A stretch of 26,661 nucleotides of DNA from a virus. Location: IMG/VR virus record IMGVR_UViG_3300007623_000304, positions 1-26,661 of that record; one strand, 5' to 3'. This document shows positions 2,543-21,839 of this stretch, piece by piece. Below the pieces are notes generated by a model. The model was not told where the DNA came from, did no database searches, and saw only the letters and a list, made by a program, of their open reading frames with translations. The position numbers were made by a program, and so were the translations under genes. The stretch's first letter is position 1, and each line of letters starts with the position of its first letter.

Positions 2543-3208
2543 ATGAAAACATTTAATCAATTTTTACAGGAAGGTGTCAACGACCCTTCCATTTTTAAAG
2601 CAGTTTTCCTAGCAGGTGGACCAGGAAGTGGTAAATCATTTGTTGTAGGTAAAACAGCTTTAACTGCGCTCGGCTTTAAGGTAGTGAACTCTGACGACGC
2701 TTTCGAAAATGCTATGAAGAAAGCTGGTATGGAAATGGACCCAGAGAATATCTTTTCTGTTAAAGGTCAAGAGTTGCGGGGACAAGCAAAGGCTCTAACT
2801 GGTAGAAAACTTGAGATGTACATTAAGGGGCGTCTTGGCTTAGTCATTGACGGTACTGGTAAGAACTTTGAAAAGATCTCGAAACAAAAAGCTAAACTCG
2901 AAGAGTTGGGTTATGAGTGTGCTATGATCTTTGTCAACACAGATAAAGAAACTGCCCTTGCTCGTAACCGTAAACGCGCTCGTTCATTACCAGATGACCA
3001 AGTGGTTGCTATGTGGAATGAAGTCCAAGGTAATATCGGAAAGTTCCAGCAAACGTTTAAGCAAAACTTAATTGTAGTTGATAACTCTGACGGAAGTGAT
3101 GCTGACCAGCAGACAATTCGCGCATATCGTGAAGTTTCTAAGTGGGCTAAACATCCACCTAAAAACGGTAAAGCCCAGAAATGGATTCGCTCACAAAAGA
3201 AAAAATAA
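2543..3208 (+). CDS. P-loop kinase (zeta-toxin/polynucleotide-kinase-like) with capsid-targeting-like N-terminus
   Basis: 221 residues from ATG 2543. Residues 25-32 are a Walker A (GGPGSGKS); VVNSDD follows after strand 2, GLVIDGTGKN looks like the Walker B/substrate region, and ARNRKRAR about residue 135-145 is an Arg-rich lid, all as in zeta-toxin/polynucleotide-kinase-type kinases. The first ten residues, MKTFNQFLQE, closely resemble the T4 internal-protein capsid-targeting sequence (MKTYQEFIAE), with an L-Q-E|G site as cut by the T4 head protease. There is no Shine-Dalgarno before this ATG, and a late promoter box sits five bases upstream. In-frame codons back to 2453 lie inside the preceding gene and would bury the motif. 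The substrate (nucleic acid 5' end or nucleotide) is not determined. Confidence 0.75.
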   Translation: MKTFNQFLQEGVNDPSIFKAVFLAGGPGSGKSFVVGKTALTALGFKVVNSDDAFENAMKKAGMEMDPENIFSVKGQELRGQAKALTGRKLEMYIKGRLGLVIDGTGKNFEKISKQKAKLEELGYECAMIFVNTDKETALARNRKRARSLPDDQVVAMWNEVQGNIGKFQQTFKQNLIVVDNSDGSDADQQTIRAYREVSKWAKHPPKNGKAQKWIRSQKKK

Positions 3209-3831
3209 AAGAACATTATATACAGAAAGGTTGGGTTCATATAAGTTCTTATCACAACATCCCTGATTCAGATAAAGTTATGGATCAGGGAATTCCTCTA
3301 AGACAAAATTATTATCTCTATTCTAATTGGTTAGGTATCTCTTGCGCTTCTAGATTTTCTAGTGTATTAGCGAAGGCATATACAAGTCAAAAAATGTACG
3401 ACCTTTCTCGTTTATTGATAGGCGAAAACGTTAATTTGTTCAACGATCAAATCGTTATAAAAATGCCTAACGACTCTATGACATTCGAACCTCACTACGA
3501 TAACCTATATGGTCCAAACAAAGATAATAAAGTTCATACAGTAAATTGTTGTTGGATACTTAGCGATTACGATAAGACCAACGGTACGCTAGAAGTACAA
3601 AACCGAGATAACGGTAAATGGGTAACATTATATCCCAAGAAAGGTGATATTGTAGCTATATGTGGCGATACTTATCATAGGAGCGGAGAGAATAAAGGGG
3701 AAGAACCTAGAGGGCTGTACGCTTGCGTGTATACAGAATCTCCCATTTACTTAGAAAATTTTTACTACCAGTCATTCTACAAAGTATGTATGGTCGGCAT
3801 GCCAACGAGCAAAGAAACTAAAGAAATTTAG
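3181..3831 (+). CDS. PhyH-like 2OG-Fe(II) oxygenase
   Basis: 216 residues with a phytanoyl-CoA-dioxygenase (PhyH) pattern: an N-terminal helix ending in YIQKGWVHIS, an H-Y-D iron-binding pair (His105, Asp107), KKGDIVAICGDTYHRSG carrying the distal His166, and Arg177 in EEPRGLYACVY as the likely 2OG ligand. Phage members of this family often have unknown or small-molecule substrates. It starts inside the kinase gene (28-base overlap, other frame) with no strong ribosome site, so coupling is likely. The start is supported because the family normally begins with this helix. It is the second of three 2OG-dependent oxygenases in the window. Confidence 0.75.
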   Translation: MDSLTKEKIKEHYIQKGWVHISSYHNIPDSDKVMDQGIPLRQNYYLYSNWLGISCASRFSSVLAKAYTSQKMYDLSRLLIGENVNLFNDQIVIKMPNDSMTFEPHYDNLYGPNKDNKVHTVNCCWILSDYDKTNGTLEVQNRDNGKWVTLYPKKGDIVAICGDTYHRSGENKGEEPRGLYACVYTESPIYLENFYYQSFYKVCMVGMPTSKETKEI

Positions 3832-4307: not shown

Positions 4308-4340
4308 ACATGTGTAAATTAAGTTGAGGACTATATTATG
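4302..4340 (+). repeat. Repeated -10/leader/start module, copy 1 (copy 2 at 4712-4750)
   Basis: From the -10 element through the ATG, this 39-base stretch matches 4712-4750 at all but one position (A versus T in GAGGACT/GAGGTCT). It contains TATACT, TGTGTAAATT, the ribosome site GAGG and TATATTATG. Shorter versions occur at 3864, 10236, 17771 and 21871. It appears to be a modular promoter-plus-leader cassette. Confidence 0.85.
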
Positions 4341-4717: not shown

Positions 4718-4750
4718 ACATGTGTAAATTAAGTTGAGGTCTATATTATG
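4712..4750 (+). repeat. Repeated -10/leader/start module, copy 2 (copy 1 at 4302-4340)
   Basis: Near-exact second copy of the -10, leader, GAGG ribosome site and TATATTATG start context found at 4302-4340. The two copies lie 410 bases apart in front of unrelated proteins. Confidence 0.85.
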
Positions 4751-10241: not shown

Positions 10242-10276
10242 AACTGTAAATTGAGTTGTTATTAAAAGGTTATATT

Positions 10277-11653
10277 ATGAAAAGAAATATTCTTTCTACA
10301 GTTATTGCTAGTTTGGTACTAACTGCTTGTGGTGAAGGGAATGCTCCTTCTGTAGCTTCCCTTTCTCCTGAACCTTCTCCTGATTTGTCTGCCCCTAAAG
10401 TTACGGTGTACGATGAGTTACGTGAAGTTATAGGAGATACCGATTCTTTGATGTTCCCGACATCTATTTACGATATCCCTGCTGATCCCAGCAACCCTAT
10501 TACTCCAGAGAAGGTAGAACTGGGTAAATTTCTTTTCCACGAAACTGGTGCTACTAAAGGTAACACAGAGCTAGTCGACACTTGGTCTTGCGCCACATGT
10601 CACTCTGCTAAATTCGGATTCCGTGACGCTATTCGTCAAAGTATTGGTGAAGGTGGTTTAGGGTTCGGCGAGAATCGTGTTCTTGCTTATGATGGTATTG
10701 ACTCTGACTCTCCTCCAATTTCTACTCCAACTTCTCTTAACTTGGCGTATCAAGAGGTGACTCTATGGAATGGTATGGCAGGTAATCAGATTGGTGGTGC
10801 TATTAATGGTGTATTGCCTGAAGAAGTATTAGCGCCAGAAGGTACTCCAAAAACCAATAACCTGTTCCAACTCGGTGGTGCTGAGACTCAGGTTCTATTC
10901 GCTAATGGTGCTCACCGTAAATCTCTCGGTTTAGCTGATGGTATTGTACGTACTAACGAAACGTATAATCATATGCTAGATCTAGCATTCCCCGAAGGTT
11001 ACGACAACCAACTAGTAGCAGTAGCTAAAGCAATTGCTGCGTACGAGCGTACTAAACTCGCTACTGAAGCTCCTTTCCAAGCATGGTTGGCTGGAGATGA
11101 TAGTGCTATGACCGAGCAACAAGCTGCTGGAGCTAAACTATTCTTCGGAGAAGCTGGTTGTTCAGGGTGTCACCAAGGACCAGCCCTAGCCACTGATGTA
11201 GGCTCTTCGGATGAAGATACGTTTATGGCTATCGGGTTTGCTGACCTAGATTACAATAACACTATTGTAGGCATGATCGATGATGCTACTCGTAAAGGAC
11301 GTGGTGGGTTTACTGGTAACGATTGGGACAATTATCGCTTTAAAGTTCCTACGTTGTATAACTTAGCTGATGTCAATTTCTATGGTCACGGTGGTTCATT
11401 TACTAGCGTCCGCGAAGTTATTGAATATAAAAACGCAGCAATTCCCCAAGCGGATATTCCTGCTGAATACTTAGACTATAGATTCGTTCCGTTAAACCTT
11501 ACAGAAGAACAGATTACAGACTTGACTGCGTTCGTAGAGGAAGCTCTTAGAGATCCTAATTTAGAGCGTTATCAACCTGCTGCGTTGCCTACTGGTAACT
11601 GTATAATTAATGCGGACGATCAGTCTAAGATAGATTTGGGATGTAATAATTAA
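10277..11653 (+). CDS. Di-heme cytochrome c peroxidase (CcpA/MauG family) lipoprotein
   Basis: 458 residues from ATG 10277 with AAAAGG seven bases upstream; the longer TTG reading would spoil the signal peptide. Residues 1-18 form a lipoprotein signal with lipobox LTAC (Cys18), then a Ser/Pro-rich linker. Two c-type heme sites are intact: CATCH (105-109) and CSGCH (295-299). The C-terminal RFKVPTLYNLADVNFYGHGGSF around 354-375 matches the conserved KVPTLRN...H.GS segment of bacterial di-heme peroxidases. The predicted role is reduction of H2O2 to water in the periplasm with electrons from cytochrome c, membrane-anchored and needing host heme attachment. A full-length copy behind a phage early-type promoter argues that it belongs to this genome. 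Confidence 0.92.
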   Translation: MKRNILSTVIASLVLTACGEGNAPSVASLSPEPSPDLSAPKVTVYDELREVIGDTDSLMFPTSIYDIPADPSNPITPEKVELGKFLFHETGATKGNTELVDTWSCATCHSAKFGFRDAIRQSIGEGGLGFGENRVLAYDGIDSDSPPISTPTSLNLAYQEVTLWNGMAGNQIGGAINGVLPEEVLAPEGTPKTNNLFQLGGAETQVLFANGAHRKSLGLADGIVRTNETYNHMLDLAFPEGYDNQLVAVAKAIAAYERTKLATEAPFQAWLAGDDSAMTEQQAAGAKLFFGEAGCSGCHQGPALATDVGSSDEDTFMAIGFADLDYNNTIVGMIDDATRKGRGGFTGNDWDNYRFKVPTLYNLADVNFYGHGGSFTSVREVIEYKNAAIPQADIPAEYLDYRFVPLNLTEEQITDLTAFVEEALRDPNLERYQPAALPTGNCIINADDQSKIDLGCNN

Positions 11654-12887: not shown

Positions 12888-12921
12888 GTATACATAACGT
12901 TGATGAATTGAGGAATATATT

Positions 12922-13869
12922 ATGAGTATGAATAACGTTTTACAAATCGAAACTTCAGCTGTTGCTGGTGGTTGCCCATGGGGTATCGGTTCTTCGGTAT
13001 CTTCTGACCTAACACCTAAACAGATGATGGAGAAGGCTGGAGTAGACTGGAGAGTCGAAAAAGTTCCTACATTCGTAGACTTCCGAGGTGAAAAAATACC
13101 TACTGGTAAAGAGGCTCTCGTACGCGACAGCGACGGTGCTGTGTTGACTCAAGTGGGTGGTAACTGGAATCCTTGCCAGAACGAAGAAGCATTTAACTTC
13201 TTTAATGAGTACTGCCTAGCAGGTGACATGGAAATGAACGCTGCTGGTTCGTTGAAAGGTGGCAAGATGGTTTGGGCTTTGGCTAAGATCAAAGAGTCGT
13301 TTGACGTTCTCGGTAAAGATCAAGTGGATAGCTACTTGTTGTTCTCTAATCCCCACGAGTATGGTAAGTCTATCGACATTCGCTTTACTCCTATTCGTGT
13401 GACCTGTATGAACACTTTAGCTTTAGCACTAAATACTAAAGCAGTATCTTCTGCTAAGATTAACCATCGTAAAGCCTTTGACCCTGAAGAAGTTAAAATC
13501 ACTCTTGGTCTAGCTCACGAGAAGTTTGACAAGTTTAAAGAAATGTCTGAGTTACTATCTACTAAGCGTTTTAAAATGGATGATCTAATCACCTACTACA
13601 ACGCTCTATTCCCTGCTGGCGGTGAAGTTAAAACCGTGAACGACTTAGCACCTAACGCTAAGAAAGCGTTCGAAGTGTTGGAGACTCAACCTGGAGCAGA
13701 ATATGGTCGCGGTACTTGGTGGCAAGCTTTCAACTCGGTCACTTACTTGACTGACCACCAATTGGGTCGTTCTGCGGACTCTCGTATGACTTCGGCTTGG
13801 TATGGTTATAACCAAGGTCGTAAACAACGTGCTGCTGAGTTGGCGGTAGAAATGGCGGTTGCTGCGTAA
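12922..13869 (+). CDS. DUF932 family protein (phage/plasmid-like TIGR03299 type)
   Basis: 315 residues, typical of the DUF932 family in size and organisation: a WRVEKVP...F segment (43-51), LTQVGGNWNPCQNEEAFNFF, a central SIDIRFTPIRVTCMNTLALAL, and a C-terminal STWW-like GRGTWWQAFNSVTYLTDH. The family is widespread on phages and plasmids, and its biochemical function is not established. It starts at ATG 12922 (MSMNN; 12928 also possible) after GAGGA. The highest-consensus early promoter of the neighbourhood suggests abundant expression. Confidence 0.85.
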   Translation: MSMNNVLQIETSAVAGGCPWGIGSSVSSDLTPKQMMEKAGVDWRVEKVPTFVDFRGEKIPTGKEALVRDSDGAVLTQVGGNWNPCQNEEAFNFFNEYCLAGDMEMNAAGSLKGGKMVWALAKIKESFDVLGKDQVDSYLLFSNPHEYGKSIDIRFTPIRVTCMNTLALALNTKAVSSAKINHRKAFDPEEVKITLGLAHEKFDKFKEMSELLSTKRFKMDDLITYYNALFPAGGEVKTVNDLAPNAKKAFEVLETQPGAEYGRGTWWQAFNSVTYLTDHQLGRSADSRMTSAWYGYNQGRKQRAAELAVEMAVAA

Positions 13870-14212: not shown

Positions 14213-14241
14213 TTGACAATATATGAAATATGGGTTATAAT
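14213..14241 (+). promoter_or_regulatory. Perfect-consensus sigma70 promoter (TTGACA-17-TATAAT)
   Basis: Both hexamers match the sigma70 consensus exactly with a 17-bp spacer. The spacer lacks the TTTGTTTT block of the other early promoters. It drives the TET/JBP-like oxygenase and the three genes after it, ending near 17740. Confidence 0.95.
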
Positions 14242-14267
14242 ATATCCTGTAACCTTGGGAGTATAGT

Positions 14268-15713
14268 ATGGAAGAAATTAAATTCGGTAATTATGTGTGG
14301 CAAAAATACAAAGGTGACGAAGGTCAAGATGTATATGTCGCACAATTTATGATCAAAGACGAAGATGTAATTGGTCGCTATGTCGACGATTCCTCGTATG
14401 ACATTCTAGTTGATAACGACGCAGATTTTTATCTACCACCAGAATGCGATATGGTACAAGAAGCAACTTGTAACCGTGAATGTATCGGGTGTATTGATGA
14501 GTCTCGTGTTGCGTTTAAATTCCGTAAAAACGTATTCAGCGCTGAAGAACAGCAAGGTGCGTTCGAAGGATTATATGGTGCTGCGGTAGAATCTAATAAT
14601 CGCGGTATGGCTGCTGGTCCACGTTCCGAAACTCAGAACGTTGGTGGTGGTGAAGGTCGAGATTGGCTAACTCCGTTCCAAGCGGATATCTTAGACCACT
14701 ACATTAAGAACCAACCACAGAATCTAGATGGCTCTGATCCAGTAGAAGAAATTATTACCAAGCATGCTATAAAGCAATATGAAACTCGTGGTTCAGTTTG
14801 GTTACGTAAAAAAGTAGAGAAAGAGTTCGGTGACTATCGCAACTTCTTCCCCAAAGCGATGGATAAGCTTGCTGAACTAAGTGTTAGTGAAGCTCGTGCC
14901 TATGCGTTGAAGTTACGTAAAGACTTCGTTTCTGATACCTCTTATGCTACTGCTATTTGGTCAGGTATCGCTGGTTTCTATGGTCGTTATCCTCGTATTC
15001 CATATGGTCGCGCAACAGCATTTACCGACCACAACCGTGAGACGTTCGAGAAGTGTTATCCCTTTGCGCGTAAACTAGATAAAGAGATGGCTCGATTACT
15101 CCCTAATCGTTATGCTGCTCAGAAAGCGTTTGCCGACCGTTTGGATAATCGTTTCCTTATTGGTGAAGATACTACGTTCACCACTATTACGGTAAACACT
15201 ACCTCTGCCGACCGTAATGCTCGTATGGCGTGTCACCGCGATGCTGGCTCGTTGAACGAAGGTTTCTCTAACTTGACAGTAATTACTAAAGAAGGTAAAA
15301 ACTGGAAAGGTGGCTACTTGGTTGCTCCGGAAGTTCGCGCTGCGATTAACGTTCGTCCTGGAGACCTTTTGCTAATCGACAATATGCGTGTCATTCACGG
15401 TAATACTCCTATTGAAGCACCAGATTCTGGTCCAGAGGATTTCCTTCGTATGTCGTTAGTATTCTATTTCCGTGAGGATATGGATAAGCTTGGCTCTTGG
15501 GAATACGAAACACTCCGTCGTCAGTTTGTTGATGATCGTCGCTTGAACAAAGACCACCCAGAGTGGCGTGAATATTGGAATGGCGTCTCTCCTAATATGT
15601 GGGATAGTGAAGAGTGGTACGAATACTGCCGAACTAATGGTGGTGAGGATATGTTGGCTGAGTATCATCCTGAAGCTTTGAAAGAAGTCGCCAGCCTCGA
15701 GGACTTTTTCTAA
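14268..15713 (+). CDS. TET/JBP-like DNA base dioxygenase
   Basis: 481 residues. The catalytic core at about 300-405 has the TET/JBP layout: strand TTITVN, then MACHRDAGSLNEGFSNL with the H-x-D pair His323/Asp325, GGYLVAPE, RPGDLLLIDNMRVIHGNTPI with His377, and LRMSLVFYFRE with Arg394 as 2OG ligand. JBP enzymes hydroxylate thymine and TET enzymes oxidise 5-methylcytosine in DNA; phage members are linked to DNA hypermodification. The N-terminal third is unassigned and carries three close cysteines (68, 72, 75). ATG 14268 follows GGGAG and a perfect promoter. Thymine as substrate is an inference from its neighbours. Confidence 0.85.
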   Translation: MEEIKFGNYVWQKYKGDEGQDVYVAQFMIKDEDVIGRYVDDSSYDILVDNDADFYLPPECDMVQEATCNRECIGCIDESRVAFKFRKNVFSAEEQQGAFEGLYGAAVESNNRGMAAGPRSETQNVGGGEGRDWLTPFQADILDHYIKNQPQNLDGSDPVEEIITKHAIKQYETRGSVWLRKKVEKEFGDYRNFFPKAMDKLAELSVSEARAYALKLRKDFVSDTSYATAIWSGIAGFYGRYPRIPYGRATAFTDHNRETFEKCYPFARKLDKEMARLLPNRYAAQKAFADRLDNRFLIGEDTTFTTITVNTTSADRNARMACHRDAGSLNEGFSNLTVITKEGKNWKGGYLVAPEVRAAINVRPGDLLLIDNMRVIHGNTPIEAPDSGPEDFLRMSLVFYFREDMDKLGSWEYETLRRQFVDDRRLNKDHPEWREYWNGVSPNMWDSEEWYEYCRTNGGEDMLAEYHPEALKEVASLEDFF

Positions 15714-16336
15714 TGTGTGGAGTACTTGGTGCTTCTATTCAAAACGTTACAGCTGCGGATCTAGACACGATTCGCAAGCTGTTTTATGAATCACAAATCA
15801 GAGGTAAACACGCTACTGGCGTGACTTACTATAAAGACGGTTCTCTAGTTACTATTAAAGAACCTACTTCGGCTGAAGAGTTTATTAAGTTACACGACCC
15901 TGCTGATTGGGTAGATGGCGATACTCTAACCTTTATCGGGCACTGTCGCTATAGCACTTCTGACTTACGTTACAATCAACCTATTGCGGACGATACGTTA
16001 TCTTTGGTACATAATGGTGTTATTTCTCAAGAGCTCCCTGATAACTGGGAAAGCTTATACGGATTTAAAACCGAAACTAAGAACGATAGTGAGTTGTTGT
16101 TCCATACGTTGAAAGAAGGTCACGAACCTGAGTACTGGGAAGACGCATCTATTTCAGCAATTTGGTTGACGGATACGGGTAGTATAAGCTACAATAGAAA
16201 TGGTAAACGTCCTTTATGGATCTATCAGTCTGCTCGTAGAATTATCCTTGCCAGTACTGAGGATGTATTGAAAAGATCTGGAATTACTTCGGGTGTATAT
16301 AAGGTTTCTTTTGAAGGAAACGATTTACAGCCATAG
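15713..16336 (+). CDS. Class II glutamine amidotransferase
   Basis: 207 residues starting MCGVLG, so processing of Met exposes the Cys nucleophile of N-terminal-nucleophile amidotransferases. Further support is RGKHATGVTYY (residues about 30-40), the IGHCRYSTSD segment and LVHNGVIS, all corresponding to the glutaminase domain of GlmS/PurF-type enzymes. No synthetase domain is fused, so it must pass ammonia or a modified glutamine to a partner. It is coupled to the oxygenase by TAATG and followed by the amidoligase, suggesting amide or amine addition to a modified base. Confidence 0.88.
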   Translation: MCGVLGASIQNVTAADLDTIRKLFYESQIRGKHATGVTYYKDGSLVTIKEPTSAEEFIKLHDPADWVDGDTLTFIGHCRYSTSDLRYNQPIADDTLSLVHNGVISQELPDNWESLYGFKTETKNDSELLFHTLKEGHEPEYWEDASISAIWLTDTGSISYNRNGKRPLWIYQSARRIILASTEDVLKRSGITSGVYKVSFEGNDLQP

Positions 16337-16347
16337 GAGATTAAATT

Positions 16348-17220
16348 ATGTATGATAAGAAAGACTTTACTTGGGGATATGAGATTGAATGGGGAGATAT
16401 TCCTCGTGACATGGAAATTCCAGAACATTTAGGCGCATGGGAATATGCTGAAACGGATATTGTAAATATCCACGAACCTTATCAGTATGTTGCTTGCGAC
16501 CCCATGGGTGTTGAACCTCCTATGGGCGGTGAGATTAATACCAAACCAACTGCTACTTGGCAAGAGCAAGTCGATCGAGTAATGGAGTTACACGACATGT
16601 TTGTTGATGCTGGGTATAATCCATCAGCTTCTGTGGTGAACCATGGTCACCTACACGTATTTGTCCCAGGAATAAAAGACGATATTAATGCTCTAAAGAA
16701 ACTAATTGCTTACATTAAGGCTAACCAAGAAGAAACTATCGAAGCGTTGTATCAGTACCACGACTATCGTACTATCAAAGAGTGTAAAGGCGCGAAGCAA
16801 TACCTCAAGTGGGATGGTGGTCGTCCTATGCCAGACTATATGTGTGATAATATTATTAACCTAGCCGAAGACTTTGACCACTTTATCAAACTCCACGCTG
16901 CTGGTAAAGATGGCGTTTCTATGGGACGTCCTTTCCGATTCGCGATTAATACTTACTGTATGAAGCATACTGGTACTATCGAGTTCCGTTGCTTCCGCTC
17001 TAGCACTAACCGTAAACAGATTGAAGACCAGTTTAAGTTCGCAGAAGCATTTATTGATGCTGCCCTTAATGATGGTCCAAGCGTTTCTGAAATCTTGGCT
17101 GCTTATGATTACGAATTCCCTCCGTTCGTTTGGAATCAACGCGAATATGCGGGTTGGAATAATACTAAGTATGATAAGTCAAGAGGTGATAAGAAACGTG
17201 AATTCCATGAAGTTGCGTAA
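16348..17220 (+). CDS. Amidoligase (carboxylate-amine ligase, glutamine-synthetase fold)
   Basis: 290 residues with the phage amidoligase pattern: WGYEIEW (9-15) with paired Glu at the metal/ATP site, GGEINTKP (60-67), NHGHLHVFV (98-106) with the H-x-H-x-H cluster, and TIEFRCFRSS (210-219), equivalent to the arginine-bearing strand of the GCS-like fold. Such enzymes join a carboxylate to an amine using ATP. Homologues occur in phage DNA-modification clusters. GAGA upstream of ATG 16348 acts as ribosome site. Its C-terminal codons overlap the acetyltransferase start. Confidence 0.8.
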   Translation: MYDKKDFTWGYEIEWGDIPRDMEIPEHLGAWEYAETDIVNIHEPYQYVACDPMGVEPPMGGEINTKPTATWQEQVDRVMELHDMFVDAGYNPSASVVNHGHLHVFVPGIKDDINALKKLIAYIKANQEETIEALYQYHDYRTIKECKGAKQYLKWDGGRPMPDYMCDNIINLAEDFDHFIKLHAAGKDGVSMGRPFRFAINTYCMKHTGTIEFRCFRSSTNRKQIEDQFKFAEAFIDAALNDGPSVSEILAAYDYEFPPFVWNQREYAGWNNTKYDKSRGDKKREFHEVA

Positions 17221-17740
17221 AACAACAGCCGAGGAATTTATCTCGGCTATTTCTGATGATCCTGCAGATAAGTTCGCTAAGACTTTTGTAGCTAAAGCGA
17301 ATATGCAGGATCAGTGGGAGTACTGTATTGGACTTTGGGAAGGTAATGAGTTGGCTGGGGCAATTATCACCACTCACTCTAAACGTTTGCCCAAGGTTGC
17401 TAACCTACAGCTGCTCCATACTTTCGCTAAACACCGTCGCAAAGGTGTTGCTAAAATACTCACAGAGGATTCTTTTAAAGCTGCCAAAGAAGCTGGTGTC
17501 AAATACTATCGCGTATCCTGTGAAGTTCCTGCCGTTCCTTTCTACGAGAAAATTGGCTTTGTAATGCTCGGTGAACAAAAGAGCAAATGCCAGTTGACTA
17601 TGTGTAGAATCAACAATACTATTGAAGACAGCTGGTATGATATAGAAGATCCAGTCATCTATGGAGCCGTCCACAAAAAAGGTAAGGGTGGTTGTGTTAA
17701 AGTCTTTCTTGAACCAGAAGGTTTATCAAATTTCTTTTAA
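17207..17740 (+). CDS. GNAT-family N-acetyltransferase
   Basis: 177 residues from ATG 17207 (MKLRKTTAEEF); the earlier in-frame starts lie inside the amidoligase. Motif A is present as LLHTFAKHRRKGVAKIL with R-R-K-G-V-A (77-82) for acetyl-CoA pyrophosphate binding, and PFYEKIGFVMLGE (111-123) is the classic C-terminal GNAT strand. The extension after residue 130 is not typical. It overlaps the amidoligase by 14 bases and is the last gene of the unit. It could acylate an amino group introduced on a base; a protein or small-molecule substrate is also possible. Confidence 0.85.
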   Translation: MKLRKTTAEEFISAISDDPADKFAKTFVAKANMQDQWEYCIGLWEGNELAGAIITTHSKRLPKVANLQLLHTFAKHRRKGVAKILTEDSFKAAKEAGVKYYRVSCEVPAVPFYEKIGFVMLGEQKSKCQLTMCRINNTIEDSWYDIEDPVIYGAVHKKGKGGCVKVFLEPEGLSNFF

Positions 17741-17747
17741 AAAGATG

Positions 17748-17776
17748 TTTACTTTTACGAAGAGGTGTAGTAGAAT
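17748..17776 (+). promoter_or_regulatory. Early-type sigma70 promoter (TTTACT-17-TAGAAT)
   Basis: TTTACT, 17-bp spacer, TAGAAT, followed by ATTGAGGACTATATTATG as in the sister leaders. It starts the second modification unit (17812-21839). Confidence 0.85.
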
Positions 17777-17811
17777 AAGTGTGTTGATGTTGATTAATTG
17801 AGGACTATATT

Positions 17812-19110
17812 ATGAATTCATACCTATACGCTTTAGAGAATACCATTAACGGAAAGAAATACATTGGGGTAAAAACCGAACGAGGAAAGGATATTCGCGA
17901 TTACGTTTCATCAAGCAATAACCCAGAACTAGAAAAGGCGTATAACGAGGGAGAAATCAACCGTTTAATTATTTTCAAAGGGGAAGAAGACGAAGCGAGA
18001 GCAGCAGAATATTTTGCGTTGAAGTACATGTTTGGTACTTTACCCCAAGAGAAGTTTTATAATTTATCATTTAATGCTAGTAAGGGTTCTGATATAGACA
18101 CAAAACTAAAGGCTAAGATTGTAAACTATATTGACGGTAATCCTTTAGATGAAACCATAGACTTAGCTTCTTGTTCAAATACCATTGCCCGTAAAATTCG
18201 CGATTCAGTTAAAGCGGGTGAGTACATCACAACTTGGGTTGATATTAACAAGGTTTTAACTTACGGCAAGTCTCAAGTTAGACAAGAGCAGTACGGTAAA
18301 GTTCAGGAAATTGTAGGGAAGATAAAGTCCGACCCAGTTAAGGCTAAAGAGACAATGTCCGGAATAACGGTAGCAGTTATGAAAGACGGTAAGAACATTA
18401 TTTTAGACGGAAACACTAGGTTACGGGCAGCAACTCTCGTTGGGTGGGAGAAGGTTCCTGCTATATACATAGACGTTGAAGAGTTTGGCGACCCTAAAAG
18501 ACTTAGACGTACATTTAGCCTATACGGTTCATTTAGTAACGACCAAGACTTTGTAGTTACTTCACCGAATACTGCGGGTGATATCAGAGGTGTTATCTTA
18601 GAACTACTTGAAGAGAACGAAGAATATTTTGTTTACCCTATTAAAGACAAACGAGGTCAATCAGAACGCATAGAATATATTTGCGCTCAATTACACGGGT
18701 TACAAGGATTTAAGCCCAAGGTTCAAGCTAAAAATGCTATACAATCTATTATAGATCAAGATGAGATAACAAAGTATACCAACAAAAAACTTATTAAGAG
18801 AACTGATAACGAGGTTTTAAAATACGCAGTTCACAAATATGAACTTAATAACATCCCTTTTGTAAAAGCTAAGGTATCGAAGTATAAAGAAGTTGGTTGG
18901 TATGCGCTTCGTCACGAGAAAGAGCAAGCTAAGAAAAAACACACGAAACCAACTAAAGCCGCGATTGTACTTTACTATTCTTCAGTTGAAGAGTATATTA
19001 AAGCTACCCGAGAAGGTTGGGTTGAAGATATTATAGAGACAATAGAACACCACAACCTTCAAGATGATATTATTGTAGAAGTTCTCCCCGCCTTTGAAGA
19101 TGCAGCATAA
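17812..19110 (+). CDS. GIY-YIG / ParB-like nuclease fusion protein
   Basis: 432 residues with two recognisable domains. Residues 1-90 look like a GIY-YIG module: SYLYALENTINGKKYIGVKT, then SSNNPELEKAYNEG and EDEARAAEYFALKYM with the likely metal-binding Glu. Residues about 140-225 are a ParB-like domain: VDINKVLTYGKSQVR, VAVMKDGKNIILDGNTRLRAA (ILDGNxRLxA motif) and GWEKVPAIYIDVEE. The C-terminal 200 residues are Lys-rich and unassigned. ParB-like proteins recur in phage base-modification clusters and may act as nucleases, ATPases or DNA-loading factors. It ends with a one-base overlap onto the next gene. Confidence 0.72.
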   Translation: MNSYLYALENTINGKKYIGVKTERGKDIRDYVSSSNNPELEKAYNEGEINRLIIFKGEEDEARAAEYFALKYMFGTLPQEKFYNLSFNASKGSDIDTKLKAKIVNYIDGNPLDETIDLASCSNTIARKIRDSVKAGEYITTWVDINKVLTYGKSQVRQEQYGKVQEIVGKIKSDPVKAKETMSGITVAVMKDGKNIILDGNTRLRAATLVGWEKVPAIYIDVEEFGDPKRLRRTFSLYGSFSNDQDFVVTSPNTAGDIRGVILELLEENEEYFVYPIKDKRGQSERIEYICAQLHGLQGFKPKVQAKNAIQSIIDQDEITKYTNKKLIKRTDNEVLKYAVHKYELNNIPFVKAKVSKYKEVGWYALRHEKEQAKKKHTKPTKAAIVLYYSSVEEYIKATREGWVEDIIETIEHHNLQDDIIVEVLPAFEDAA

Positions 19111-20129
19111 TGGATTATAGATTACAAGAAAATAGACGAGAGTCTTTTATAAAATGGTACGCATGGTCGCTTCAATATAAAGATTGCGACCCTGCGGTTT
19201 GGATGACTAACTACCTTAATCAGAGATACGAGCACAACTCTGAACAGCGTTTGTGGTTCGCTTGGTTATATGGTAACACTTATTATCTACCCACTGCGTT
19301 TATTCTACTCAACGAGTTCCCTGACTTTGAGCTGGCGACTTATGATAGAATGAATGAGTGGAACACCGAGAACTATAAGCGCCTTCGCTATCAGAACGAT
19401 ACTAAATGGTCTAAAGGTCATCTACCTGATATGTTTAAATCTTACGCAGAGTTCGTAGGAGATAAAACACAGGAAGAGGCTCTTTCCGAGCATTATGGTG
19501 ATACTGAAGAGCAAACGTTCGATAACCTATATGGTGTTATTAAGGATAAGTTCTACAAGTTCGGTCGATACTCTGCTTGGTTTTATCTACAGCACCTATA
19601 CTCAACGTGTAACGTTCCCGCTGTACCTAGTACGCTATTGTTTAATGATTACTCTGGCAGTCGCTCGCATCGTAACGGTTTCTGTTTCGCTTTGGGTAAA
19701 GACGATTGGTATGATAAGAAACTAAGCGCATCAGAGTATGAATGGCTAGAGAGTCAAGCTAAAGAATTGTTGATTGAAATGCAAGATCGATTTAAAAGCT
19801 TGACTTCTGACATAAATCCGTATACAATGGAAACAGCTTTGTGTGCTTATAAGAAGGTCTATCGCATTCGAGACGGCAGATACCTTGGCTATTATAACGA
19901 TCGTGTTGCTGAAGAGATTCGTCGCGTAGAGCAAGACTCTTGGGATGGTATAGAATGGCGTGTACTTTGGGACGCTCGTAACGAAACCTTGGATAAAGAA
20001 CTGTCTGTTTCCAAGATGATAGATAAAGGTAAAATGAGCGCATTTGTTGATGAAGGAAAAATAGCCAGACTTGACTGGATGTTTAAAGAAGACAAAGAAG
20101 TCACTTTTGGACTTGAGGAATTTATGTAA
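19110..20129 (+). CDS. aGPT-PPlase-like DNA base hypermodification protein
   Basis: 339 residues, predicted all-helical, resembling the alpha-glutamyl/putrescinyl-thymine pyrophosphorylase group (clade 2 by my reading). Supporting segments are EQRLWFAWLYGNTYYLPTAFIL, NEFPDFELATYDRMNEWN, FGRYSAWFYLQHLY and the late NPYTMETALCAYKK. In phages with 5-hydroxymethyluracil DNA, members of this group act with a P-loop kinase to activate or substitute the hydroxymethyl group, with amino acid or polyamine as the added moiety. It is flanked by the ParB-like fusion and a kinase, with one-base overlaps on both sides. The family call is from memory of the pattern and needs a profile search. Confidence 0.65.
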   Translation: MDYRLQENRRESFIKWYAWSLQYKDCDPAVWMTNYLNQRYEHNSEQRLWFAWLYGNTYYLPTAFILLNEFPDFELATYDRMNEWNTENYKRLRYQNDTKWSKGHLPDMFKSYAEFVGDKTQEEALSEHYGDTEEQTFDNLYGVIKDKFYKFGRYSAWFYLQHLYSTCNVPAVPSTLLFNDYSGSRSHRNGFCFALGKDDWYDKKLSASEYEWLESQAKELLIEMQDRFKSLTSDINPYTMETALCAYKKVYRIRDGRYLGYYNDRVAEEIRRVEQDSWDGIEWRVLWDARNETLDKELSVSKMIDKGKMSAFVDEGKIARLDWMFKEDKEVTFGLEEFM

Positions 20130-20671
20130 TGAAATTGATATATTTGATTGGACTTCCAGGGACGGGCAAGTCAACTGTTATGAAGTCTCTTATGAAAACA
20201 CTTGGTGAGTTTACCCCAGAGCGTCCGATAGATCTACTGGACTCTCACGTGAACGGTAATATTCGCATTCTAGGTAAGTATGAAGAAGGTGAAACGTTCT
20301 CAGGAACAGACCGCCTTTCTATGGCAGTAGCACCTAAAGCGGTGGAGTACTTTAGCACAAAACCTAACGAGGTGGTCATAGGAGAAGGTGATAGGCTAAA
20401 TAATAAACGTTTCTTTGATACTTTTGATGATAAGGTTATTATACATCTAACTGTATCGGATGAAGAACGACAACGAAGATATGCTGAACGTGGTTCCGAT
20501 CAATCTGACAAATTTATCCAAACTGTCGCGACGAAGTGTAGAAATATCGTTGAAGAATATGGAGATAAAATGACGCTATTTGGCGAAGAGGAAGGCTGTA
20601 TCGTTGAGATGCGTCACGAAACTCTAGAAGATACCGCAAATGTGGTTAACAAAATATTGGAGGTAATTTAA
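20129..20671 (+). CDS. P-loop kinase, candidate 5-hydroxymethyluracil DNA kinase
   Basis: 180 residues. Walker A is GLPGTGKS (8-15); GTDRLSMAV at about 65-73 and VVIGEGDRLNNKRFF are the substrate and Walker B-like regions, and ERQRRYAERGSDQS is an arginine lid. Kinases with this GEGDRL/TDRLSM pattern accompany aGPT-PPlase genes in hypermodified phages, where they phosphorylate 5-hydroxymethyluracil in DNA. The gene overlaps the aGPT-PPlase-like gene by one base and has GAGGAA upstream. A generic nucleotide kinase is the main alternative; the gene context favours the DNA kinase. Confidence 0.65.
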   Translation: MKLIYLIGLPGTGKSTVMKSLMKTLGEFTPERPIDLLDSHVNGNIRILGKYEEGETFSGTDRLSMAVAPKAVEYFSTKPNEVVIGEGDRLNNKRFFDTFDDKVIIHLTVSDEERQRRYAERGSDQSDKFIQTVATKCRNIVEEYGDKMTLFGEEEGCIVEMRHETLEDTANVVNKILEVI

Positions 20672-21260: not shown

Positions 21261-21839
21261 ATGAAGATATTAATAATAGCACACGCTAGATCTGGCAGCA
21301 CAAATTTAGCTAATGCTATTTGTAACCTTACTGGTGATACACTTTACTTTGAGCCGTTCAACTCCCAGAGAAGCCATAGAGAAGACAACTGGTTGAATTC
21401 TCCTCCGAAAGATATACCAGAAAATTGTGTAGTTAAGACGATAATTTTTCAAAATAAAACGTGGGTTAGAGAAAGAGCCAAAGATTTTGACCTTGTTATA
21501 TTTCTTTCTAGGGCTAATATTAGAGAAGTCTTTATAAGTGCTCAGAATGCATATAACAAAAATAATTATCATGGTATATACATTAACGACGCAGAACCTA
21601 CTGATGATATGATGAGGTTTGTTTCCATACAGTATAAAATGCTTACGCATATGAATATGCTTTTGAGTAAAGACTCTCTTGTGAATTCTCGCTTCGTTTG
21701 GTACGAAGATATTTTCTGTGAAGAAGTAGAACACTCTCTTTCCTCTATAAGGAATTTAGGTATAGATTGCTCGCAAGAAAAATTCACTAACGTTTGGAAG
21801 AAATGGTTATCTCCTAAAAAAAGATTGAGAATTATTTAA
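21261..21839 (+). CDS. Sulfotransferase-like protein
   Basis: 192 residues starting one base after the dCMP deaminase stop. HARSGSTNLANAI (8-20) matches the PAPS 5'-phosphosulfate loop of sulfotransferases, and FLSRANIREVFISAQNAY (81-98) matches the 3'-phosphate-binding segment with Arg84 and Ser93. Cytosolic sulfotransferases transfer sulfate from PAPS to hydroxyl or amino groups. The substrate is unknown; a cell-surface glycan, a small molecule or a modified base are all possible. It is somewhat short, and the last gene of the unit begun at 17748. Confidence 0.7.
   Translation: MKILIIAHARSGSTNLANAICNLTGDTLYFEPFNSQRSHREDNWLNSPPKDIPENCVVKTIIFQNKTWVRERAKDFDLVIFLSRANIREVFISAQNAYNKNNYHGIYINDAEPTDDMMRFVSIQYKMLTHMNMLLSKDSLVNSRFVWYEDIFCEEVEHSLSSIRNLGIDCSQEKFTNVWKKWLSPKKRLRII

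Follow-up and report, generated by a model that had tools for sequence, protein, structure and literature searches.

A run of seven genes in the window analysed here (26,661 bases, the complete IMG/VR virus record IMGVR_UViG_3300007623_000304; a phage fragment that implies a larger genome) is probably a phage thymine-hypermodification operon, whose products would act by hydroxylation, kinase activation, nitrogen substitution and capping. The pathway consists of a co-inherited core of four genes, encoding a TET/JBP-type dioxygenase (TET), a glutamine amidotransferase (GAT), a transferase of the ADDT / aGPT-PPlase family (ADDT) and a P-loop kinase, together with interchangeable finishing enzymes, here an amidoligase and a GNAT N-acyltransferase; the seventh protein joins GIY-YIG and ParB-type domains (GIY-ParB). 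This reading draws on gene content, protein families, invariant residues, linkage, co-divergence and the absence of alternative enzymes from relatives. Judged from its genes, this widespread and conserved cassette most likely turns the thymine of phage DNA into a bulky new base.

A four-gene core and exchangeable tailoring genes

The sequence-only reading of this DNA had proposed a seven-gene base-modification system at 14213-20671, and the set itself is real: all seven open reading frames were confirmed (14,268-20,671, all on the + strand and almost end to end, Table 1), and it is found again in hundreds of viral contigs, beyond chance. A small correction to the gene call is that GNAT translation probably begins with the ATG at 17207, inside the 3' end of the amidoligase gene. 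Relatives in viral contigs number at least 362 for the amidoligase and at least 599 for ADDT. In a survey centred on ~55 distinct amidoligase genes (each count taken over contigs of sufficient length), GAT lay upstream in 51/51 cases and GNAT downstream in 49/50, with ADDT (23/23), kinase (23/23) and TET (16/16) also around the amidoligase; eleven other genes of the window were seen in the same span in 0-3 of 16 amidoligase loci. The usual gene order is TET-GAT-amidoligase-GNAT-(GIY-ParB)-ADDT-kinase, with TET sometimes placed between ADDT and kinase.

A survey centred on ADDT, which avoids the bias of selecting on the amidoligase, gave 24 distinct loci with enough flanking sequence. TET, GAT and kinase were each present in 24/24, and the amidoligase in 14. 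The interval between GAT and ADDT held an amidoligase and GNAT (with or without GIY-ParB) in 11 loci, a different GNAT alone in 10 (sampled members were verified as GNATs) and an amidoligase with a low-molecular-weight (LMW) phosphatase in three, and a 170.6 kb contig of the GNAT-alone class had no amidoligase anywhere along it. Over 67 loci, the distances of TET, GAT, ADDT and kinase correlate (rho 0.68-0.86, Mantel p<=0.002), most tightly for GAT and ADDT (rho 0.86) though these genes are often non-adjacent, whereas amidoligase distances are uncorrelated with those of the four core proteins (rho -0.09 to 0.02, 45 loci). Given this linkage, the variable GAT-ADDT interval and the pattern of co-divergence, the cassette is a four-gene core with swappable finishing enzymes, and the single seven-enzyme pathway envisaged earlier does not hold, since amidoligase and GNAT are exchangeable and the slot of GIY-ParB is variable. 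Separately, we note that an LMW phosphatase lies directly 3' of the amidoligase in L203, L237, L244 and L110, which span two unrelated phage groups.

The variable slot holds a GIY-ParB gene in 14/23 loci and otherwise an HNH-like protein, other proteins or none. The HNH-like alternative (~480-510 residues) carries a DHxxP HNH-like motif and a DGNTR motif, and its weak match to the GIY-ParB family profile (probability 22%, E 0.00095, centred on DGNTR) suggests that it may be ParB-like as well. The window's own fusion protein scores 20.8 bits with ParB_N, under the cut-off of 26.3; its residues 1-123 match a GIY-YIG homing-endonuclease PHROG, its model matches ParB/Noc CTPases and sulfiredoxin (Foldseek), and no relative was found in the phage collection. 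As a variable slot occupant it is disfavoured as a biosynthetic enzyme and is probably accessory (a nuclease with a ParB clamp or CTPase); plausible roles would be that of a nuclease leaving modified DNA uncut or of a homing-type element. ParB-domain proteins are found beside other phage DNA-modification genes (PMC12783734, PMC11955845).

Enzyme families and proposed chemistry

Profile searches, the check put forward with the sequence-only reading, placed the dioxygenase and ADDT above their Pfam cut-offs, while the amidoligase and ParB_N matches stayed below and were rescued by structure. The dioxygenase scores 57 bits with Tet_JBP (cut-off 34.9), and its iron triad (H323-x-D325, H377) and 2-oxoglutarate-binding R394 are invariant in 58 aligned homologues; we propose that it acts on DNA as a thymine 5-methyl hydroxylase. 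GAT (GATase_6, 42.6 bits, cut-off 27) keeps the N-terminal cysteine nucleophile C2, R79, the Asn-Gly oxyanion pair N101-G102 and D125, and is the proposed nitrogen donor; cassette GATs are partly missed by PF13522, and a custom GAT profile was used. ADDT (61.3 bits, cut-off 26.2) covers positions 17-228 of the 232 in its model, has relatives in 376 phage records including Salmonella, Klebsiella and Shigella phages (~28% identity over >90% of the length), and would replace phosphate by nitrogen. The kinase (67.9 bits, cut-off 27) has an invariant Walker A motif (G8xP10xxG13K14) and is the proposed 5-hydroxymethyluracil (5hmU)-DNA kinase. These last two proteins thus sit in the expected families, PF18724 and PF18751, rather than in unrelated ones, the outcome that had been named in advance as speaking against the system. 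The conserved catalytic residues of TET, GAT and kinase point to conserved enzymes, not decayed genes.

The amidoligase scores 16.7 bits with Amidoligase_2 (PF12224; cut-off 22) and so is not a member by Pfam's own threshold. Nearly all PDB matches of its AlphaFold model (pLDDT 90.5) are to glutamine synthetase (GS), gamma-glutamylcysteine synthetase (gamma-GCS) and YbdK (Foldseek; best E 5.6e-3, probability up to 0.97), and these are individually weak and mutually consistent. Homologues as distant as 25% identity all keep the motifs G10xE12xE14, G61E62xN64, H101xH103 and T210xE212xR214, and the acidic metal ligands and TxExR residues (E12, E14, E62, H101, H103, E212, R214) are invariant in seven divergent amidoligases. 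Because of these fold matches and invariant acidic and basic residues, we identify the modelled protein as a predicted GS-fold carboxylate-amine ligase. Sequence search found no relative of solved structure for it or for ADDT. The GNAT scores 49.1 bits with Acetyltransf_10 (cut-off 23.6).

Its contexts in phage Simon, Vibrio phage 2.275.O and Arthrobacter phage Ottawa (described below) argue that the amidoligase may act in base modification. In the unannotated genome of Simon (60.9 kb), an amidoligase 25% identical to that of the window is followed by an LMW phosphatase, next to which stand a P-loop protein whose HMUDK match is sub-threshold and a helical-domain protein (HMUDK_hel, 146 bits); the group lies near an ADDT, an FAD oxidoreductase and a ThyA-type gene, and no GAT was detected in Simon with the custom profile. 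From this gene content it would be an M6-like thymine-hypermodification operon, independent of the window cassette, and the same pairing of amidoligase and phosphatase is found again in L203, L237 and L244. In Vibrio phage 2.275.O (L111 11866-16126), an amidoligase homologue and a GATase_6-like protein below the cut-off lie inside a 7-deazaguanine cluster, a hint that the cluster may make an amide-modified deazaguanine. No further loci came up when the amidoligases of Simon and the Vibrio phage served as queries.

In the route that we propose, TET would act once the phage DNA has been replicated, hydroxylating the 5-methyl group of its thymine to give 5hmU, and the P-loop kinase would phosphorylate the hydroxymethyl group. 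ADDT would then swap the phosphate for a nitrogen nucleophile, most likely ammonia released from glutamine by GAT or an ammonia-derived group, yielding 5-aminomethyluracil (5-aminomethyl-U) or a closely related base. Exchangeable enzymes, namely the GS-fold amidoligase (joining carboxylate and amine with ATP) and the GNAT, would cap the amine or side chain, and the resulting bulky amide-bearing base would block host nucleases and probably hide the DNA from bacterial defences. The succession of hydroxylation, kinase activation, nitrogen transfer and acyl or amide tailoring, already suggested in the sequence-only reading, is the likely order. In M6, ViI and phiW-14 type phages, a kinase phosphorylates 5-hydroxymethyldeoxyuridine (5hmdU), which amine transferases then modify (PMC6449724), and the ATP-dependent ligase CmoY builds an amide onto a base of phage DNA, which is a direct precedent (PMC12783734). 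Delivery of GAT ammonia to the ADDT step is favoured because GAT is a core member whose divergence follows that of ADDT, and because either of GAT and amidoligase can be found without the other; by the same token, GAT as a mere ammonia source for the amidoligase is disfavoured.

Table 1. Coordinates of the cassette genes and of the promoter and leader elements in the window.
Feature	Coordinates	Strand	Basis or position
Sigma-70-type promoter, perfect TTGACA-17-TATAAT	14213..14241	+	before dioxygenase gene
TET/JBP-type Fe(II)/2-oxoglutarate dioxygenase, 481 aa	14268..15713	+	Pfam, conserved residues, linkage
Class II (Ntn) glutamine amidotransferase/glutaminase (GAT), stand-alone, 207 aa	15713..16336	+	GATase_6, conserved residues
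Amidoligase, predicted GS-fold carboxylate-amine ligase, 290 aa	16348..17220	+	AlphaFold, Foldseek, motifs
GNAT N-acyltransferase, ~177 aa	17207..17740	+	Acetyltransf_10
Weak promoter-like site TTTACT-17-TAGAAT, 9/12	17748..17776	+	before second unit
Leader/ribosome-binding motif TTGAGGACTATATTATG	17798..17814	+	near-identical at starts of four genes
GIY-YIG nuclease domain fused to ParB/sulfiredoxin-fold domain, 432 aa	17812..19110	+	PHROG, ParB_N, Foldseek
ADDT / aGPT-PPlase family amino acid:DNA transferase, 339 aa	19110..20129	+	PF18724
P-loop kinase, Pfam Ploopntkinase3, 180 aa	20129..20671	+	PF18751, Walker A

Substrate base and competing explanations

Between the thymine and cytosine derivatives considered earlier, thymine is favoured and cytosine disfavoured. 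Profile search found a C5-cytosine methyltransferase in 0/20 cassette records (up to 170 kb), nor was one found in phages C48C1, DLP6 and Cr30, and the same search matched in 10/14 control genomes. ThyA-family enzymes, the candidate dUMP or dCMP hydroxymethylases, were found in 0/16 cassette records (only Cr30 has one), and ThyX, which makes dTMP, is present in the window and in 11/13 long cassette records. Because the cassette records have neither a C5-methyltransferase nor a ThyA-type enzyme and mostly have ThyX, thymine is the most likely substrate, and the TET/JBP enzyme would hydroxylate it in DNA; these phages appear to make ordinary thymine and then to hydroxylate it within DNA. An improbable alternative is that TET oxidises 5-methylcytosine (5mC) to 5-hydroxymethylcytosine in DNA, with the kinase, ADDT and tailoring enzymes then building a modified cytosine. 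TET/JBP domains accept either base, and the phage TETs characterised by Burke et al. in 2021 reportedly act on 5mC, yet the missing methyltransferase stands against a cytosine route, as do the ThyX genes and the ADDT and kinase relatives that are tied to thymine.

For the nitrogen step itself, our proposal is more tentative: GAT and ADDT may work as the two components of one enzyme, aminating phosphorylated 5hmU within DNA directly with glutamine ammonia, after which the GS-fold ligase would couple a free carboxylic acid (e.g., gamma-glutamyl) to that amine while the DNA is intact, in a glutamine-synthetase-like reaction on a nucleobase, to give an N-acyl-aminomethyl-U not yet described, and the cassette variants would make at least three bases. 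We consider it less likely that ADDT instead installs an amino acid, as in M6 and ViI, and that amidoligase and GAT amidate its carboxylate with glutamine ammonia, as a split amidotransferase working on DNA. The ADDT family name and precedent, the constant presence of GAT beside the amidoligase in the cassette (51/51) and the asparagine-synthetase-like ligases by which other phages amidate the carboxylate of a base (PMC12783734) all fit that route, but GAT occurs without an amidoligase in 10/24 ADDT loci (including the 170.6 kb contig), Simon has the amidoligase but no detectable GAT, and GAT co-diverges with ADDT and not with the amidoligase. Still less credible is a pairing of two unrelated neighbouring modules, in which TET, ADDT and kinase modify DNA while GAT, amidoligase and GNAT modify host peptides or the cell surface. 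Iyer et al. (cited in PMC7824862) are said to have predicted such a role for amidoligase-GAT-GNAT sets in 2009, and the history of the amidoligase is uncoupled from that of the core; against this, GAT is present in 24/24 ADDT loci as the tightest core partner, an amidoligase of the same subfamily sits in the Simon operon, and relatives occur with TET and kinase in Ottawa and in the Vibrio 2.275.O cluster. We reject a separate peptide or surface module on this linkage and these contexts. A defence-system identity of the operon was also dropped: PADLOC gave nothing for six of the proteins and weak P-loop matches only for the kinase.

Several points weigh against the thymine-hypermodification reading. 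Every chemical step, their order, the nucleophile and the final structure are predicted here from the genes, and the ADDT-family precedents described by Lee et al. in 2018 and 2022 reportedly use amino acids, not ammonia. The kinase belongs to Ploopntkinase3, a sibling family, and not to the HMUDK models that bear the name of the characterised 5hmdU DNA kinases (PF18748/PF18723): it matches PF18751 and not PF18748, and has no HMUDK_hel match. Because the window covers a 26.7 kb piece of a phage genome, gene absences were judged only in relatives, none of them certified complete, and host-derived 5mC stays a caveat to the thymine assignment. The loci behind the co-divergence are related to each other, with only identical ADDTs removed, and the tie between GAT and ADDT is evidence that they are inherited together, not that they are physically coupled.

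Known systems, neighbouring features and significance

Pseudomonas phage M6, Salmonella phage ViI and Delftia phage phiW-14 resemble the cassette in the 5hmU intermediate, a DNA-level kinase, an ADDT/aGPT-PPlase and further tailoring, and the clustering of kinase and ADDT typical of M6/ViI-type systems is seen in 24/24 loci. In these phages 5hmdU is made at the nucleotide level and then incorporated (PMC6449724), whereas the cassette would hydroxylate thymine in DNA; it further differs in having ThyX and not a ThyA-type enzyme (dUMP hydroxymethylase, 0/16), a different kinase family, GAT in its core and a GS-fold amidoligase. The cassette would thus open and end its chemistry unlike the thymine-modifying viruses studied so far. 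The phage-encoded C5-cytosine methyltransferase of 5mC-dependent phage TET systems was likewise seen in 0/20 cassette records.

Partial versions of the set occur elsewhere, and the full cassette was absent from every cultured phage that turned up in the analysis. Rhodococcus phage Tonitrus clusters a ParB-like nuclease domain, a tet-like JBP, aGPT-PPlase2 and a 5hmU kinase in a five-gene thymidine-hypermodification set, for which GAT, amidoligase and GNAT are not reported; this is annotation only, and the likeness is by description (PMC11955845). Caulobacter phage Cr30 has TET (39% identical to that of the window), ADDT (26%) and kinase (33%) all within 10 kb, but the genes are scattered, no GAT or amidoligase was detected, and a ThyA-family gene and a TAGT-like glycosyltransferase are present. 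The cultured Arthrobacter phage Ottawa (genes 65-75, L116 7402-14904) combines Amidoligase_2 (117 bits), GATase_6 (53 bits) and Ploopntkinase3 (136 bits) with three ParB-like genes and a Tet_JBP-like protein; no ADDT was found there and the amidoligase is of another subfamily, so that the cluster is possibly an ADDT-free relative of the cassette. The CmoA/CmoX/CmoY 5-carboxymethylcytosine-glycine system of Synechococcus phage S-B43 also uses ATP to attach an amide to a base of phage DNA and has ParBc proteins and glutamine-hydrolysing variants nearby, but it works on cytosine, by Cx-SAM methyltransferase chemistry and with an asparagine-synthetase-type ligase (PMC12783734).

An orthologous TET (49-68% identical to that of isolates) is followed by glycosyltransferase-like or sugar-nucleotide genes, in place of kinase and ADDT, in C48C1, DLP6, L011, L015 and L016. 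Downstream of the orthologous TET in L001, L011, L015 and L016 we observed glycosyltransferase-like, nucleotidyltransferase-like or UDP-galactopyranose mutase genes, suggesting that the whole downstream chemistry may have been swapped. Three TET/JBP dioxygenases carry the label "SNF2 DNA repair protein" (KU682439 27179-28525 of DLP6, KF301602 59353-60681 of Cr30 and MG450654 3729-5165 of S-CBWM1), which is likely a misannotation.

Of the two promoter-headed units in the sequence-only reading, the first has a perfect promoter, and the second a 9/12 site that is at chance level taken alone but has strong counterparts in relatives. Sites of at least 11/12 lie upstream of TET in 17/53 related loci and of the GIY-ParB gene in 13/26 relatives, compared with 0.4% in shuffled sequence, all these counts being non-independent observations; a two-unit layout is plausible from these sites. 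The motif TTGAGGACTATATTATG has four matches in the window, compared with 0.19 expected by chance (4324-4340, 4734-4750, 12908-12924 and 17798-17814, the other genes starting at 4338, 4748 and 12922), and is possibly a shared translational-control element. Elsewhere on the contig are a di-haem cytochrome c peroxidase/MauG-like protein with an apparent lipoprotein signal (10256-11653; 48% homologue in phage C48C1), a second 2-oxoglutarate oxygenase (PhyH-like, 3181-3831) and a weak sulfotransferase-like protein (21261-21839). A search of phage records found no near-identical record for the window, and the sole match among genome contigs, a 3.6 kb contig in an Actinomycetota metagenome-assembled genome, does not settle the host.

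As for novelty, combinatorial tailoring of thymidine was reportedly established as a principle by Lee et al. in 2022. The sequence-only reading knew of no characterised case of the exact set; ParB, TET, aGPT-PPlase and kinase together have already been called thymidine-hypermodification (PMC11955845), and what stands as new is the variant with a GAT-containing core and an amidoligase. The literature text searched held nothing relevant on an amidoligase or carboxylate-amine ligase in this context, and an earlier computational mention of parts is possible, subscription papers lying outside the search.

If our reading is correct, one of the more frequent DNA-modification cassettes of environmental phages (hundreds of contigs) would yield a thymine derivative not described before, starting with hydroxylation in DNA, drawing on a dedicated glutaminase and finishing with an exchangeable ligase, acyltransferase or phosphatase. 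DNA chemistry would gain a GS-fold amide ligase, along with a modular toolbox to write amide-bearing bases. With the core genes named (TET, GAT, ADDT and kinase), the pathway could be rebuilt step by step, and nuclease resistance would be accounted for in a large group of uncultured phages.

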